The translations under genes and the position numbers were made by a program. Under the pieces are notes generated by a model. It worked only from the letters and a program-made list of their open reading frames with translations, had not been told where the DNA came from and did no database searches. From Bacteroidales bacterium (GTDB lineage: Bacteria; Bacteroidota; Bacteroidia; Bacteroidales; UBA932): DNA of 64,000 nucleotides. The stretch covers positions 1 to 64,000 of the forward strand of contig JAFRQH010000030.1 in the NCBI GenBank assembly GCA_017428725.1, in the 5' to 3' direction. Of this stretch, positions 27,513 to 34,757 are shown in pieces. Each line of letters begins with the position of its first letter. Position 1 is the stretch's first letter.

Positions 27513-28469
27513 TTAATCCATTGATTGCATTGTATTTACGGACATGTACAGCATATTCGCGAACTCCGAGGGACTCACGGAGGCGAAGAAGCATCCGACA
27601 GGATTCACGGCGACGCCATCCTTGCGCACCCCATAGTGGAGGTGCGGGGCCACGGCCTGGCCGGACATCCCCACCGCGCCCACTTTCTGGCCCGTGCGCA
27701 CCCGCTGCCCGGCCCGTACGGACATGCTCTCCAGGTGGGCGTAGACCGTCTCGTAGCCGCCGTCGTGGCGGATCCGGACGGTATTGCCCGTGGTCCGCGA
27801 GGAGGCGGCGGTCACCACCGTCCCGTCCGCCGTGGCCAGCACGGGCGTGCCGCGCGTGACGATCAGGTCCAGGCCCTCGTGGTAGACATAAGCTTTGTAG
27901 AAGGGGTTGATCTTGCGGCCCGTGGAGGCGCCGACCTGCGGGTATGTAATGTCGTTGATGGGCAGGATCATCGGCGGGAGGGACGTCTGCGGATCCGAGA
28001 GGATCCCGAAGATCTGCTTGAAAGCTGCCTCCACGTCGGCGCTGTGCGCCAGCAGGCTGTCCGCCTTATGCGCCGTATAGCCGACCAGCTCCCCGGCGGG
28101 GATGGAATCCGCGACGGCGAAGGACTCCTCCATCGCCTCCATCGGGTCCAGGCCCGGCGCACTGGCGTGGAAGACCTGGTCGTAGATCCGGTCGTCCTTG
28201 TGCTGCAGGTCCGCGATGGCGTCCTCGAGCAGGCCGCTGCGCGCCTCCAACTCGGGATAGAGCCGTTCGTACAGACGGATTTCGCGCCGGAGCCGGCGCT
28301 CGGTGTCCGTCCGGAAGAACAGGGCGAAAACCCCGTAGGTCAACACGGCCAGCGTGAGGGTCATCAGCATGTACAGCACGAGCCGGAGCACCGCCCGCCA
28401 GATCTTGCGGGGGGCTTCGCCGAAATGGAAGTTTTCGGCATCGAAGACGAAACGCCTGTGCTTAGCCAT
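27513..28469 (-). CDS. M23-family metallopeptidase (murein endopeptidase-like)
   Basis: A 318-residue protein with one N-terminal membrane anchor (LYMLMTLTLAVLTYGVFALF), a coiled-coil stretch (about 58-95) and a C-terminal LytM/M23 domain. The zinc-site sequence is HEGLDLIVTRGTPVLATADG, where the usual HxxxD (H-G-G-x-D type) appears as H-E-G-L-D. The HxH motif is VAPHLHYGVRKDGVAVNP. It overlaps the preceding M23 gene by 8 bases. The pair likely trims or regulates peptidoglycan during growth or division. Confidence 0.92.
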   Translation of the reverse strand: MAKHRRFVFDAENFHFGEAPRKIWRAVLRLVLYMLMTLTLAVLTYGVFALFFRTDTERRLRREIRLYERLYPELEARSGLLEDAIADLQHKDDRIYDQVFHASAPGLDPMEAMEESFAVADSIPAGELVGYTAHKADSLLAHSADVEAAFKQIFGILSDPQTSLPPMILPINDITYPQVGASTGRKINPFYKAYVYHEGLDLIVTRGTPVLATADGTVVTAASSRTTGNTVRIRHDGGYETVYAHLESMSVRAGQRVRTGQKVGAVGMSGQAVAPHLHYGVRKDGVAVNPVGCFFASVSPSEFANMLYMSVNTMQSMD

Positions 28470-29484
28470 CGCCGTTCCTCCTGCGGCGGAGCAGCTCCGT
28501 CGTGCTGGACCGCTTGCCGACGGGAGAGTCCTCCTTGCGCTTGTCGATCATCGCGCGGTATTCGTCGAGCGGCATGTTGAAATCCATGAAATTCATCGGG
28601 TTGACGCGGTTGCCCTGGTAGACGACCTCGTAGTGCAGGTGGGAGCCCGTGACCTTGCCGGTGGCGCCCACGGTGCCGATCTGCTCGCCGCGCCGGACCT
28701 TCATCCCCTCCGCGATGATGATCGTGTGGAGGTGCGCATAGCGCGTCTGGTAGCCGAAACCGTGGTCGATGACCACTTCGTTGCCGTAGCCGGTGAACTG
28801 GAAGCGGGCCGAGACCACCACGCCGTCACCGGTACAGTAGACCGGCGTGCCCGTGGCCGTGGCGAAATCCTGCCCACCGTGGCTCTCGCTGCCGCCGTAG
28901 ACCGGATCCTCGCGCCAGCCGAAACCGCTGGACAGGTGGACCCGGGAGGCGTCCGGCAGCAGCGGCGGCACGCTCGGCACGCAGGAGATCATGTCCCCCG
29001 CCTCGCGGGACAGCTGGGCGACCTCGTCCAGGGCCTTGCTCTGGATGTAGGCGCGCTTGGTGAGGTTGTCCAGCCGGCGCACGGACCAGCCCAGGGTGGA
29101 ATGGCCCCCCAGCAGGTCGAACTCGGCATAGCGGTTCACGCCGCCCAGGCCGGCGTTCTTGACTTCGTCCGGGATCGCCCCCAGGCCATAGATCGAGCGG
29201 TACACTTCGTCGTCCCGCTGCTCGATGCCGGTGAGCGTGCGGTCGTAGAGGTCAAGCCGGCTGTCGAGCACCGCCATCCGGGCCTCCCATTCCGCGGCCC
29301 GGCGCTTGAGATACGCCGTCCGGGGGAGGTCCCAGTGGAGCACGGAGGTGTAGAGCCAGAAGTACAGCATCACGAAACCGGCGGCCAGCACAATGGCCGC
29401 CACGATGCGGAGCGTCTTGACGTACCGCGGTTCGTCCCTTGCCTCGTAAAGCAGCGTCTCAGGATTGAGGATATACTTCGGCAT
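28462..29484 (-). CDS. M23-family metallopeptidase (murein endopeptidase-like)
   Basis: A 340-residue paralogue of its neighbour with the same plan: a membrane helix at about residues 25-50 (IVAAIVLAAGFVMLYFWLYT), a helical segment, and an M23 domain from about residue 195. The zinc ligands are clear in SHGGQDFATATGTPVYCTGD and GSHLHYEVVYQGNRVNPMNF. It is the first gene of the M23-M23-MerR unit, diverging from alaS. A TATCTTTG box ends 7 bases before the ATG. Confidence 0.93.
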   Translation of the reverse strand: MPKYILNPETLLYEARDEPRYVKTLRIVAAIVLAAGFVMLYFWLYTSVLHWDLPRTAYLKRRAAEWEARMAVLDSRLDLYDRTLTGIEQRDDEVYRSIYGLGAIPDEVKNAGLGGVNRYAEFDLLGGHSTLGWSVRRLDNLTKRAYIQSKALDEVAQLSREAGDMISCVPSVPPLLPDASRVHLSSGFGWREDPVYGGSESHGGQDFATATGTPVYCTGDGVVVSARFQFTGYGNEVVIDHGFGYQTRYAHLHTIIIAEGMKVRRGEQIGTVGATGKVTGSHLHYEVVYQGNRVNPMNFMDFNMPLDEYRAMIDKRKEDSPVGKRSSTTELLRRRRNGDG

Positions 29485-29616: not shown

Positions 29617-29642
29617 TGGTTCGTTTATAACTTTTGCAATTT

Positions 29643-32276
29643 ATGACCTCAAAGGAAATCAGACAGAAATTCCTCGATTTCTTCGCATCCAAGGGCCACA
29701 CCGTGGTGCCTTCGGCACCGATGGTCGTCAAGAACGACCCGACCCTGATGTTCACCAATGCCGGAATGAACCAGTTCAAGGACATCTTCCTGGGCAACGC
29801 CAAGGCCCCCTACCGCCGGGCGGCCGACTCCCAGAAGTGCCTGCGCGTGAGCGGCAAACACAACGACCTGGAGGAGGTCGGCCACGACACCTACCACCAT
29901 ACGATGTTCGAGATGCTCGGCAACTGGAGCTTCGGAGACTACTTCAAGTCCGAAGCGATCGACTGGGCCTGGGAGCTGCTGACCGACGTCTACAAGATCG
30001 ACAAGAACCTCCTCTACGCCACCGTGTTCGAAGGCTCCACCGAGGACGGCACCACGCTCGACACCGAGGCGCAGCAGGCCTGGCGCAAATACCTCCCCGA
30101 GGACCACATCCTGCTGGGCAACAAGCACGACAACTTCTGGGAGATGGGCGAGACCGGCCCCTGCGGTCCCTGCTCCGAAATCCACATCGACATCCGCACC
30201 GCGGAGGAGAAGGCCGCTTCCGGCATCCCCGGCCGCGAGCTCGTCAACCAATCCGACCCGCACGTCATCGAGATCTGGAACCTCGTCTTCATGCAGTACC
30301 AGCGGATGGCCGACGGACACCTGGTGCCGCTGCCCGCCCGCAACATCGACACCGGGATGGGCTTCGAGCGTCTCTGCGCCGTGCTCCAGGGCAAGAACAG
30401 CAACTACGACTCCGACGTCTTCACCGGGATGCTCGCCCGCATCGGCGCGCTCTCCGGCCACAAGTACGGCGAGTCCGACAAGACCGACGTGGCGATGCGC
30501 GTGATCGCAGACCACATCCGCGCCATCAGCTTCAGCATCGCCGACGGCCAGCTCCCCTCCAACGTCAAGGCCGGCTACGTCATCCGCCGCATCCTGCGCC
30601 GCTCCGTGCGCTACGGCTACACCTTCCTCGGCCTGTCCGAGCCCTTCCTCTGCCAGCTCGTGCAGCAGCTCGTGGACGACATGGGCGAGGCCTATCCTGA
30701 GATCGCGAAGCAGCAGAAGTTCATCGAGAACGTCATCCGCGAGGAGGAGATGGCCTTCCTGCGCACCCTCGACCGCGGCATCCGCCTGATGGACGACTGC
30801 ATGGAGCGCAGCCGGGACACCAAGGTCATCTCCGGGGCCGACGCCTTCAAGCTCTACGACACCTACGGCTTCCCGTTCGACCTGACGGAACTGATCGCCG
30901 CCGAGAACGGCTTCACCGTGGACCAGGAAGGGTTCCTCTCCGAGCTCAAGCAGCAGAAGGACCGCGCCCGCAACGCCACGGCCAACACGTTCGGCGACTG
31001 GACCGTCTACCACGACGGCGAGGACGTGGCATTCGTCGGTTTCGACACCACGGAGGTCGGGGACGCCCTGCTGCTCAAGAGCCGCACCGTCGTCCAGAAG
31101 AACAAGGAGATGCTCCAGCTCGTCTTTGACCGCACGCCGTTCTACGGCGAGATGGGCGGCGAGGTCGGTGACACCGGCATCCTCACCGCCGCCGACGGCG
31201 AGCAGGTCCGGATCCTCAACACCGTCAAGGAGAACAACCTCACCATCCACATCGCCGAGCGCCTGCCGCAGGACTGCACCGGCGCCTTCCGCCTGAGCGT
31301 CGACGCCGCGCGCCGCCAGCGCATCGCCAACAACCACAGCTGCACGCACCTGATGCACCGGGCCCTGCGCGAGATCCTCGGCACCCACGTGGAGCAGAAG
31401 GGCTCCTTCGTGAACGACAAGGGTTTCCGCTTCGACTTCTCCCACTTCGAGAAGCTCTCCGACGAGCAGCTCGCGGCCGTGGAGAAGCGCGTCAACGAGC
31501 TGATCCGCAGCAATTTCCCGCTCGCCGAGAAGCGTGACGCCACGATGGACGAAGCCAAGGAGATGGGGGCGATGGCCCTGTTCGGGGAGAAGTACGGCGA
31601 CCGCGTGCGCGTAGTCCGCTTCGGCCCCAGCGTGGAGCTCTGCGGCGGCTGCCACACCTCCGCCACCGGCAACATCGGCTTCTTCAAGATCACCGGTGAG
31701 TCCGCCATCGCAGCCGGCATCCGCCGCATCGAGGCGGTGACCGGCGAGCAGGCCGAGGAGCTCGTGTTCGCAATGCAGGGTCTGATCAAGACAGCCCGCT
31801 CCTTCTTCAACAACGTGCCCGACCTCGCCGGCGCGATCCAGCGGATGATCGAGGACAACGCCACCTTCAAGAAGCAGGCGGAGGAGTTCTCCCGCCAGAA
31901 GGCGGCCGACTTCGCCCGGATGATCAGCGAGAAGGCCGAGGAGGTGAACGGCATCAAGCTCATCGTCGCCGCCCGCGCCGGACAGGACCTCGATCCCGCG
32001 ATGGTCCGCACGGCCGCCCTGGCCCTCCAGAAAGAGATGCAGGGCGCGGCCCTCGTGGGCGCCTACGTCCACGACGGCAAGCCGCAGCTCGTCCTGATGT
32101 ACTCCGACGACCTCGTGGCCGCGGGCCGCAACGCCGGCAAGGACATCCGCGACGTCGCCAAGTTCATCCAGGGCGGCGGAGGCGGACAGAGCGGCCTCGC
32201 CACCGCCGGCGGCAAGAACGCCGCCGGGCTGGACCAGGCGCTCAGCGCCCTGATCGACACCGCCACGCGCAAATAA
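29643..32276 (+). CDS. alaS: Alanine--tRNA ligase
   Basis: An 877-residue class II synthetase that charges tRNA-Ala. The ATG at 29643 is preferred to an in-frame TTG 9 bases upstream. The catalytic domain opens TSKEIRQKFLDFFASKGHT, with motif TNAGMNQFKDIFLG and motif 2-type RVSGKHNDLEEVG. The editing domain zinc ligands are NNHSCTHLMHRAL and CGGCHTSATGNIGFF. The C-terminal C-Ala domain ends with GGGGGQSGLATAGGKNAAGL. It is followed 14 bases later by the permease-Fmt fusion gene. Confidence 0.97.
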   Translation: MTSKEIRQKFLDFFASKGHTVVPSAPMVVKNDPTLMFTNAGMNQFKDIFLGNAKAPYRRAADSQKCLRVSGKHNDLEEVGHDTYHHTMFEMLGNWSFGDYFKSEAIDWAWELLTDVYKIDKNLLYATVFEGSTEDGTTLDTEAQQAWRKYLPEDHILLGNKHDNFWEMGETGPCGPCSEIHIDIRTAEEKAASGIPGRELVNQSDPHVIEIWNLVFMQYQRMADGHLVPLPARNIDTGMGFERLCAVLQGKNSNYDSDVFTGMLARIGALSGHKYGESDKTDVAMRVIADHIRAISFSIADGQLPSNVKAGYVIRRILRRSVRYGYTFLGLSEPFLCQLVQQLVDDMGEAYPEIAKQQKFIENVIREEEMAFLRTLDRGIRLMDDCMERSRDTKVISGADAFKLYDTYGFPFDLTELIAAENGFTVDQEGFLSELKQQKDRARNATANTFGDWTVYHDGEDVAFVGFDTTEVGDALLLKSRTVVQKNKEMLQLVFDRTPFYGEMGGEVGDTGILTAADGEQVRILNTVKENNLTIHIAERLPQDCTGAFRLSVDAARRQRIANNHSCTHLMHRALREILGTHVEQKGSFVNDKGFRFDFSHFEKLSDEQLAAVEKRVNELIRSNFPLAEKRDATMDEAKEMGAMALFGEKYGDRVRVVRFGPSVELCGGCHTSATGNIGFFKITGESAIAAGIRRIEAVTGEQAEELVFAMQGLIKTARSFFNNVPDLAGAIQRMIEDNATFKKQAEEFSRQKAADFARMISEKAEEVNGIKLIVAARAGQDLDPAMVRTAALALQKEMQGAALVGAYVHDGKPQLVLMYSDDLVAAGRNAGKDIRDVAKFIQGGGGGQSGLATAGGKNAAGLDQALSALIDTATRK

Positions 32277-32290
32277 AGCCACCCGCCGGG

Positions 32291-34690
32291 ATGAAGAGAC
32301 TCGACCGCTATACGCTGAAGGCATTCATCGGACCTTTCGTCGCGATCCTCTTCGTCGTGATCTTCATCCTGATGATGCAGACCCTCTGGCTCTACATCGA
32401 CGAGTTGGTGGGCAAGGGGCTCGGGCTGCGTACCATCCTGGAATTCCTGTTCTGGGGCGTATGCAGCCTGGCGCTGCCCCTCGCCCTGCCCCTCGCCACC
32501 CTGCTGGCGTCCACGATGACCGTCGGACAGCTCGCCGAGAAGGGCGAACTGATGGCGATGAAGTCCGCCGGCATCTCCTTCGGGCGCATCATCGCCCCGC
32601 TTGCGGTCGCCGCCGCGCTCATCGCCTGCGGCACCTATGTCATCTGCTCGCGCCTGGTCCCCTACTCCTTCAACCAGATCTACACCCTGCGCGACGACAT
32701 CGCCCGCACCAAGGACGAGATCAAGATCCCGCCGGGGACCTTCTACGACGGCATCGACGGATACATCCTGCGCGTGGGTGCCCAGAACAAGGAGACCAAG
32801 ATGCTCTATGACGTGCAGGTCTACGACCACACGGCCCGCAAGGGCAACATCTCCGTGACCCTGGCCGACTCCGCCGTGATCAAGATGGCCAAGAGCAAGG
32901 AGTACCTGACCTTCTCCCTGTACAACGGCTCCACCTACGTGGAGGACAACACGATGCGCTACAACGACACCTCCCTGGTCCTCCGGCACATCAACTTCGT
33001 CCGCCAGGAGCTGCTGATCCCGCTCAAGAACTACAGCTTCGAGAAGTCCGACTCCGCCCGCTTCGACGACCAGATCAAGACCAAGCAGATGGCCGAGCTG
33101 CGGCATCTGAGCGACTCGCTGGACCACTATCTGGACTCCCTGCACGACCTGCATTACAACATGCTCCGCAGGACGCCCACGCTGATTATGGCCAAGCAGC
33201 TGGACACCGCCACCCGCAACCCGGGCCGGCAGCTGTACACCCATCCCGACTATCTCCGCTGGGGCAACCTCGACGAGGAAGCGAAGGCTTATTCCGCGGC
33301 GGCCGAGAACGTGATGAAGCTCTCCGGCGACATCAGCAACTTCAAGTTCGAGACCTACGAGCAGAGCTACAACGTACGGCAGTCCGACCTCTCCCTGCTC
33401 GAGAAGACCGCCCAGGCCCTCGCCTGCCTGCTCCTCTTCTTCATCGGCGCGCCGGTGGGCTCGCTCGTGAAGAGCAAGCGCGGCGGGCTCGGCGTGGGAC
33501 TGATCATCTCGGTGCTGTTCTTCGTGATCTACTACGTAGTCAACATCTCCGGCAACAAACTGGCGCGGGACGGCGCGGTCGAGACCCCCGTCGGGGTGTT
33601 CATATCGTCCGTGGTCATCGCGCCGATCGGCGCTTTCCTGACCTGGAAGGCCCTCAAGGACGCAGAACTCTTCAATATGGACCAATTCCAGATCTGGCGA
33701 CGCAAGATCGCCAGCAAGATCCGGCGCATCTTCCGGCCCACGCGCATCGTCTATATGGGCACGCCCGAATTCGCGGTCGCGCCCCTGGACGCCCTCATCC
33801 GGAGCGGCTACAAGGTCGTGGGCGTGGTCACGGTGGCCGACAAGCCCAGCGGGCGCGGGCTCAAGGTGAACGAAAGCGCCGTCAAGCAGTATGCCGTGGC
33901 CCACGGCATCCCCGTGCTGCAGCCTGTCAAGCTCAAGGATCCGGAGTTCCTCCAGGCGCTGGCCGCCTGGAAGGCCGACCTGTTCGTGGTCGTGGCCTTC
34001 CGGATGCTCCCCGAGCAGGTCTGGTCGATGCCCAGGCTCGGCACCTTCAACCTCCACGCGGCGCTGCTGCCGCAGTACCGCGGCGCCGCCCCGATCAACT
34101 GGGCCGTCATCAACGGAGAGAAGATGACGGGCGTGACCACCTTCATGATCGACAAGGACATCGACACCGGCGGGATCATCCTGCGCCAGGAGTGCCGCAT
34201 CCGGCCGGACGAGACGGCCGGCGAACTGCACGACGAACTGATGGCGATCGGCTCCGACCTCGTCTTGCAGACGGTCGAGGGCCTGATCCAGCACAACGTG
34301 GAGCTGCGTGTCCAGCGTTCCTTCATCCAGGGTTCGGAAGAGCTCAAGCCCGCCCCGAAGCTCACCAAGGAGCTCTGCCACATCGACTGGGCCCGCCCCA
34401 CGGACGAGGTCTACAACCTCATCCGCGGCCTCTCGCCGTACCCGGCCGCTTTCGCTACGCTCCAGCGGCTTGAAGAAACGACAACCCTGAAGGTTTTCCG
34501 CACGGAAAAGCGCCCGGACCTGCACGCAGCGCCGGGCACCGTCCTCTCCGACGGCAAGTCGTACTTCGCCGTAGCCACGGCCGACGGCGCCCTGGAGATC
34601 ACCGACCTGCAGCTTTCCGGCAAGAAACGCATGGCCGCCGCCGACTTCCTCAAGGGCTTCCGGGATCCGGAGTCCTGGCGCGCCGCATAG
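32291..34690 (+). CDS. fmt: Fusion: LptF/LptG-family permease + methionyl-tRNA formyltransferase
   Basis: One uninterrupted 799-codon frame. Residues about 1-445 are a YjgP/YjgQ (LptF/LptG) permease of the lipopolysaccharide transport machine: N-terminal helices (KAFIGPFVAILFVVIFILMM), the conserved ELMAMKSAGISFGRI, a periplasmic jellyroll, and C-terminal helices (LACLLLFFIGAPVGSLV). A basic linker (IWRRKIASKIRRIFRPTR) leads to a full methionyl-tRNA formyltransferase from about residue 485: RIVYMGTPEFAVAPLDAL, the catalytic FNLHAALLPQYRGAAPINWA with Asn and His, IDKDIDTGGII with the third catalytic Asp, and a C-terminal OB-like domain. Both halves are normal length and keep key residues. The cytosolic Fmt would be tethered to the inner membrane. 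Separate translation from an internal start cannot be excluded. Confidence 0.9.
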   Translation: MKRLDRYTLKAFIGPFVAILFVVIFILMMQTLWLYIDELVGKGLGLRTILEFLFWGVCSLALPLALPLATLLASTMTVGQLAEKGELMAMKSAGISFGRIIAPLAVAAALIACGTYVICSRLVPYSFNQIYTLRDDIARTKDEIKIPPGTFYDGIDGYILRVGAQNKETKMLYDVQVYDHTARKGNISVTLADSAVIKMAKSKEYLTFSLYNGSTYVEDNTMRYNDTSLVLRHINFVRQELLIPLKNYSFEKSDSARFDDQIKTKQMAELRHLSDSLDHYLDSLHDLHYNMLRRTPTLIMAKQLDTATRNPGRQLYTHPDYLRWGNLDEEAKAYSAAAENVMKLSGDISNFKFETYEQSYNVRQSDLSLLEKTAQALACLLLFFIGAPVGSLVKSKRGGLGVGLIISVLFFVIYYVVNISGNKLARDGAVETPVGVFISSVVIAPIGAFLTWKALKDAELFNMDQFQIWRRKIASKIRRIFRPTRIVYMGTPEFAVAPLDALIRSGYKVVGVVTVADKPSGRGLKVNESAVKQYAVAHGIPVLQPVKLKDPEFLQALAAWKADLFVVVAFRMLPEQVWSMPRLGTFNLHAALLPQYRGAAPINWAVINGEKMTGVTTFMIDKDIDTGGIILRQECRIRPDETAGELHDELMAIGSDLVLQTVEGLIQHNVELRVQRSFIQGSEELKPAPKLTKELCHIDWARPTDEVYNLIRGLSPYPAAFATLQRLEETTTLKVFRTEKRPDLHAAPGTVLSDGKSYFAVATADGALEITDLQLSGKKRMAAADFLKGFRDPESWRAA

Positions 34691-34757
34691 CCCGGAAAAC
34701 AGTAAAATTGGTAAAAGAATCCGGAGAATCTGCAAAGTATTTTTCGAAGAATAGCTT

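Follow-up and report, generated by a model that had tools for sequence, protein, structure and literature searches.

An LptF-type permease and methionyl-tRNA formyltransferase encoded as a single open frame in a Bacteroidales lineage

A 64,000-nucleotide stretch of DNA from a Bacteroidales bacterium (contig JAFRQH010000030.1, positions 1 to 64,000; hereafter the window) carries a gene, lptF::fmt, that is probably the product of a fixed gene fusion. The encoded polypeptide would be one bifunctional inner-membrane protein, in which an LptF exporter subunit carries the sole methionyl-tRNA formyltransferase (Fmt) at the cytoplasmic face of the membrane. On the basis of the sequence analyses described below, a probability of roughly 0.8 is assigned to this reading.

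In the window DNA, lptF::fmt is one open frame of 799 codons with zero internal stops. The Pfam family LptF_LptG (PF03739) spans residues 6-453 of the product (E = 3e-66, 224 bits; profile positions 1-353 of 353), Formyl_trans_N (PF00551) spans residues 485-659 (E = 2e-34) and Formyl_trans_C (PF02911) spans residues 690-791 (E = 3e-24), with the last profile covered end to end. Frame and Pfam assignments together bear out the initial annotation, which described a single 799-codon frame uniting a complete LptF/LptG-type permease with a complete Fmt; the two occupy residues 1-455 and 485-791. The features of the locus are as follows.

29634..32276, plus strand: alaS, alanyl-tRNA synthetase, 14 nt upstream of the fusion on the same strand
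32291..34690, plus strand: lptF::fmt fused gene, ATG at 32291, stop TAG at 34688-34690
32291..33655, plus strand: LptF permease part, residues 1-455 (Pfam PF03739, AF2 model)
32531..32572, plus strand: coupling helix motif LAEKGELMAMKSAG, residues 81-94 (LptF/G consensus match, aligned to solved LptF/LptG)
33656..33742, plus strand: joint, residues 456-484, native basic LptF tail running into Fmt strand 1 (tail comparison, codon analysis, AF2)
33677..33679, plus strand: ATG of Met463; no further ATG occurs in the stretch from TM6 to the core motif of Fmt
33743..34285, plus strand: Fmt catalytic (N-terminal) domain, residues 485-665 (PF00551, Foldseek)
34049..34057, plus strand: catalytic Asn587 and His589 (FNLHAALLP), unvarying, aligned to solved Fmt
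34163..34165, plus strand: catalytic Asp625 (IDTGG), unvarying, aligned to solved Fmt
34358..34663, plus strand: Fmt C-terminal tRNA-binding domain, residues 690-791 (PF02911, full profile)

Spread of the fused frame

The fused frame was observed at 72 loci in eight genera of the window's family. A check for a stop or frameshift at the joint had been proposed at the outset, and relatives were examined for it. Of 36 genomes sampled from the window's genus, 33 cover the joint, and it is open in 33/33 (G004, G010 and G014 lack coverage of the joint, and G025 is broken in the LptF part only). All 17 further sampled relatives from this genus had an open joint, and no loss of the fusion was seen in ∼50 genomes of the genus. 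The fused gene was also present in 80/80 named MAG contigs from independent studies, a set ordered by how closely its members resembled the fused protein and therefore evidence of persistence, not frequency. The hosts of these contigs include cattle, goat, yak, deer, horse, chicken and others, and the organisms include Candidatus Cryptobacteroides fimicaballi, intestinipullorum, faecigallinarum and excrementipullorum. Identity at the named MAG loci was 55-81%, the same range as for genomes of the window's own genus, and across independent assemblies overall the same frame was retained at 55-84% protein identity. Judged by the shared 55-81% range, the window most likely belongs to Cryptobacteroides or a close neighbour of it. 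Given that the joint is open across relatives from the same genus and in every one of the MAG contigs, the fusion is neither a chance event nor a sequencing error.

A query spanning the joint was run against partly overlapping samples from the order (393 genomes), the class (395) and the phylum (395), and every fused gene retrieved belonged to the window's family. Apparent long frames of 821-875 aa in G050 (another family; 821 aa) and in G545, G563 and G569 (genus g210) proved not to be fused; TAG and TAA codons lie in frame between the two genes in the DNA of G050, and in-frame stops separate the genes in the g210 genomes. No paper describing an LptF-Fmt fusion was found in the literature (open-licence full texts searched), and the domain fusion is apparently unreported, each half coming from a known family.

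The permease and formyltransferase parts

In the AF2 model, the LptF part comprises six TM helices (residues 2-34, 46-83, 97-138, 327-392, 400-427 and 432-456), a periplasmic beta domain (strands within residues 151-244) and a helical insert of the Bacteroidales type. Residues E86 and G94 of the coupling helix, between TM2 and TM3, were unvarying in 25 aligned fused proteins. The E86/G94 motif fits the LptF/G consensus given in PMC5082905, where the coupling-helix Glu and Gly are reported to be absolutely conserved among LptFG homologues. The TM regions gave a dN/dS of 0.07 (42 disjoint close pairs). The NCBIfam LptF model TIGR04407 scored this part at 150.5 bits, under the cut-off of 230, and the corresponding LptG score was lower still at 103 bits (cut-off 240). 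Because the LptF score lies under the cut-off, the N-terminal part is named "LptF-type" and not a TIGR04407 equivalog; the score may reflect distance from the seed sequences of the model. One MAG contig, JAGCWB010000053.1 (L193), carries a fused gene with an in-frame stop early in its LptF part, probably a sequencing error or an indication of a later start.

LptF, LptG and LptB constitute an ABC transporter that draws LPS out of the inner membrane, and an N-in topology is established for LptF. Only one further LptF/LptG gene was found in the genome, an LptG-type gene on contig C6 adjoining tgt, and the LptF part should join LptG and LptB in the predicted LPS exporter. Given the six modelled TM helices and the N-in orientation of LptF, the Fmt part should be cytoplasmic.

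The Asn/His/Asp set of the Fmt part (N587, H589 and D625) was unvarying both in 25 aligned fused proteins from several genera and in an alignment of 80, with an SLLP or ALLP loop present, confirming that the catalytic residues are intact as had been annotated. The fusion passed the equivalog cut-off of the TIGR00460 "fmt" model (235.5 versus 201.5 bits; profile positions 2-306 of 315), and this model matched 25/25 fused proteins. The top Foldseek matches were solved Fmt structures, among them 2fmt_A (TM 0.87) and 5uai (TM 0.90), with TM values by target length. For the catalytic domain, dN/dS was 0.06 in the 42 disjoint close pairs. The fused Fmt is predicted to formylate the initiator Met-tRNA.

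Fmt is viewed as an enzyme that is free in the cytosol. The genome considered here is a 40-contig draft of 2.63 Mb that is 98% complete; it contains three Formyl_trans_N genes, which are the fusion, PurN adjoining purM, and a PurU-like gene. A PF00551 search for a second Fmt across this 98%-complete genome found none. Since there is no other, Fmt is encoded solely as part of a membrane protein. Tethering at the inner membrane, as proposed in the initial annotation, thus gains ground, but the suggested benefit of tethering for nascent membrane proteins or for envelope assembly does not, as no finding points to it. The genome also carries two deformylase genes and, on contig C37 (593-666, minus strand; L257), an initiator tRNA-Met, the only place in the genome that matched the initiator anticodon stem GGGCTCATAACCC exactly. 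Read from the sequence, its first pair appears to be C1/U72, and CCA is not encoded. A C1/U72 combination leaves the end unpaired, as expected of an initiator tRNA; the E. coli initiator has C1/A72. Given that a sole Fmt, two deformylases and the initiator tRNA have been kept, the formylation cycle appears to be intact and dependent on the fusion.

The joint and the route to fusion

The basic segment at residues ∼465-484 had been taken for a linker at the joint. Comparison with unfused LptF proteins of the family revealed an ordinary C-terminal tail, comparable to the fused one in both length and charge (median 36 aa and +4 in unfused genes; 28 aa and +5 in fused genes), and the pattern DSxLFNxDxYxxFFKK is common to both. 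Because unfused LptF of the family has this tail and no new motif was detected, the basic segment predates the fusion, and the idea of a specially evolved linker was dropped. In the AF2 model (80-sequence alignment), the tail forms a helix at residues 463-481 and confidence is lowest at residues 460-463. Both domains are folded (mean pLDDT 83.5), and the pTM of 0.49 means that their relative placement is not fixed by the model. Within the 42 disjoint close pairs, the joint showed a dN/dS of 0.18 with zero indels, and synonymous divergence there was ordinary, as elsewhere in the gene. By this codon analysis the joint is under purifying selection and looks both translated and length-constrained, and nothing in it points to a concealed start codon or an RNA signal.

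Gene order in relatives suggests how the fusion may have arisen. Four further families of the order have 3.6-3.7 kb between lptF and fmt, a space occupied by two glycosyltransferase genes and ribBA. In genus g213, which belongs to the window's family, ribBA alone intervenes. The two genes touch or overlap at 47 loci and form a single gene at the 72 already mentioned. In unfused relatives fmt has its own start, often with an overlap of ∼10-40 nt with lptF. Genera g216 and g222 (L119-L121, L124 and L126) exhibit overlaps of ∼25-40 nt in which the two genes are read in different frames and fmt starts at an ATG within lptF; this is likely to be a translationally coupled sister state of the fusion. 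Programmed frameshifting was considered for these genera and is not needed, as each fmt has an in-frame upstream ATG. With the fmt ATG lying within the final part of lptF but out of frame with it, a small indel would fuse the overlapping genes. The series from lptF-GT-GT-ribBA-fmt (where GT is glycosyltransferase) through lptF-ribBA-fmt and adjacent or overlapping genes to the fusion is read, from these arrangements, as the probable route. Relatives with two clearly separate genes, which the initial annotation would have counted against a fusion, were indeed found in other genera of the family, yet they mark the probable ancestral state, and the fusion is universal among the examined genomes of the window's genus.

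A gene tree of both proteins, built with a "quick" search and not equivalent to a species tree, requires two or three changes to account for the fused state. A single fused clade was rejected (AU test, p = 3e-7), with the fusions of g26/g208 grouping with unfused g216/g222. The tree would therefore imply that fusion happened two or more times, or that a single fusion was followed by fission. Conservation across the window's genus is compatible with usefulness and equally with irreversibility after fmt had lost its own start.

The upstream neighbour is also retained. The alaS gene is directly upstream of the fused gene in 76/77 named MAG loci, and directly upstream of lptF in most genera with adjacent genes and in all fused genera with sufficient flank. 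A separate arrangement occurs in genus g224 (L149-L153), in which an unfused LptF adjoining fmt ends in an extension of 145-170 aa instead of a short tail.

Explanations considered and comparison with known systems

In the preferred reading, the genes between lptF and fmt would have been lost, the two neighbours would have come to overlap, and the lptF stop would then have been lost in frame. Residues 1-455 would act as LptF, with the tail (residues 456-484) leading into Fmt (residues 485-799), and Met-tRNA would be formylated by an Fmt hanging from the cytoplasmic face of the membrane. Two features may explain why the fusion is tolerated: the cytoplasmic end of LptF is a flexible basic helix, and the substrate of Fmt is a diffusible tRNA. 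We infer that the topology in the cell is as modelled and that the chain remains uncut with both activities running; no new coupling would be needed.

An assembly or sequencing artefact masking a stop and a new start could be entertained in a 40-contig draft. It is scarcely credible and was rejected, since independent assemblies from many hosts and studies conserve the same frame at the identities given above and the joint has a dN/dS of 0.18. It is very improbable, too, that the formyltransferase part is a sugar N-formyltransferase acting on LPS, which would supply a pathway link to LptF. ArnA and WbkC-type enzymes do have the same fold; against this, the equivalog cut-off of TIGR00460 is passed in the window and the model matches 25/25 fused proteins, the top structural and sequence matches are to Fmt, a complete tRNA-binding C domain is retained, and the genome, which still encodes deformylases and initiator tRNA, offers no further candidate for Fmt. 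On the Pfam, TIGR00460 and solved-Fmt alignment evidence, a sugar formyltransferase was rejected as the likeliest function.

Production of two proteins from the joined frame, whether through a second start within it or through proteolysis of the basic tail, would be in keeping with the ATG at codon 463 in the window, with an ATG 11 codons ahead of the Fmt motif in 56/145 fused genes and with the low AF2 confidence at residues 460-463. In this species, a free Fmt could start at Met463 or be released by proteolysis. However, the Met463 position is ATG in only 33/145 fused genes, no start position is common to most of the 145, and ATG is lacking in 32/145, and all of ATG, GTG and TTG in 8/145, over the last 30 codons. 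Start positions thus vary, and synonymous sites at the joint show no added constraint, so that a concealed internal start shared by the fused genes is not supported. Furthermore, the family's examined separate fmt genes start near the core, so loss of the start would not be expected if one were needed. Two products are thus judged quite improbable. Selection for the tethering itself has been weighed as well, such that the state of LptF, LPS flux or membrane position governs formylation and initiation, or formylation near the membrane aids the synthesis of membrane proteins. The two or more changes on the tree, with a single clade rejected, the universality of the fusion in the window's genus with no loss in ∼50 genomes, and the joint length kept within close pairs would all agree with such coupling. 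Yet the joint is an ordinary LptF tail without a new motif, and sister genera manage unfused. Overlapping neighbours are, moreover, one small indel from fusing, so that repeated fusion is expected without any benefit, and no paper linking the two functions was found among open-licence full texts. Functional coupling is therefore unlikely. The particular form in which the amount, position or working cycle of LptB2FG sets Fmt output, with construction of the outer membrane thereby directly influencing the rate of formylated initiation, is similarly unlikely.

The fixed bifunctional fusion, which we prefer, can be compared with several known systems. It resembles LptF (YjgP) of the LptB2FGC exporter in its six TM helices, periplasmic beta domain, coupling-helix Glu and Gly, presumed cytoplasmic C terminus and single LptG gene as partner. 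It differs in having a C-terminal enzyme of ∼315 residues and, as in unfused relatives, a longer Bacteroidales periplasmic helical insert. Both domains, the Asn/His/Asp set, the GRG loop region and full length are shared with Fmt (TIGR00460; E. coli 1fmt/2fmt). Known Fmt is free and soluble with its own start, whereas the fused Fmt lacks its own start and is attached to a membrane subunit. In ArnA, a formyltransferase of this superfamily is likewise part of a fusion, with a decarboxylase, and the product is tied to envelope lipid chemistry; unlike the pairing of Fmt and a permease in lptF::fmt, however, ArnA is a soluble protein whose substrate is UDP-Ara4N. As in other fusions of operon neighbours by stop loss, unfused sister genes are adjacent or overlapping and the tail at the joint is unchanged, although the partners in lptF::fmt come from unrelated processes.

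In this gut and rumen lineage, with its sole Fmt on a subunit of an inner-membrane exporter, formylation may run from the membrane at the copy number of LptF, and the lineage would allow the importance of where Fmt sits, or of how much there is, to be tested in nature. Because folate-dependent formylation and LPS export share one gene, a mutation, drug or regulatory change would affect both. The graded gene orders within one family also provide an unusually clear record of two unrelated genes becoming one protein.

Two further observations concern the surrounding DNA. Long antisense open frames lie opposite lptF::fmt (32063-34735, minus strand, 890 aa) and opposite alaS (29649-32324, minus strand, 891 aa); these are probably by-products of GC-rich codon use and not genes. 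Upstream of alaS, two tandem genes for M23-type peptidase-like proteins of 318 and 340 aa occupy positions 27513-29484 on the minus strand.
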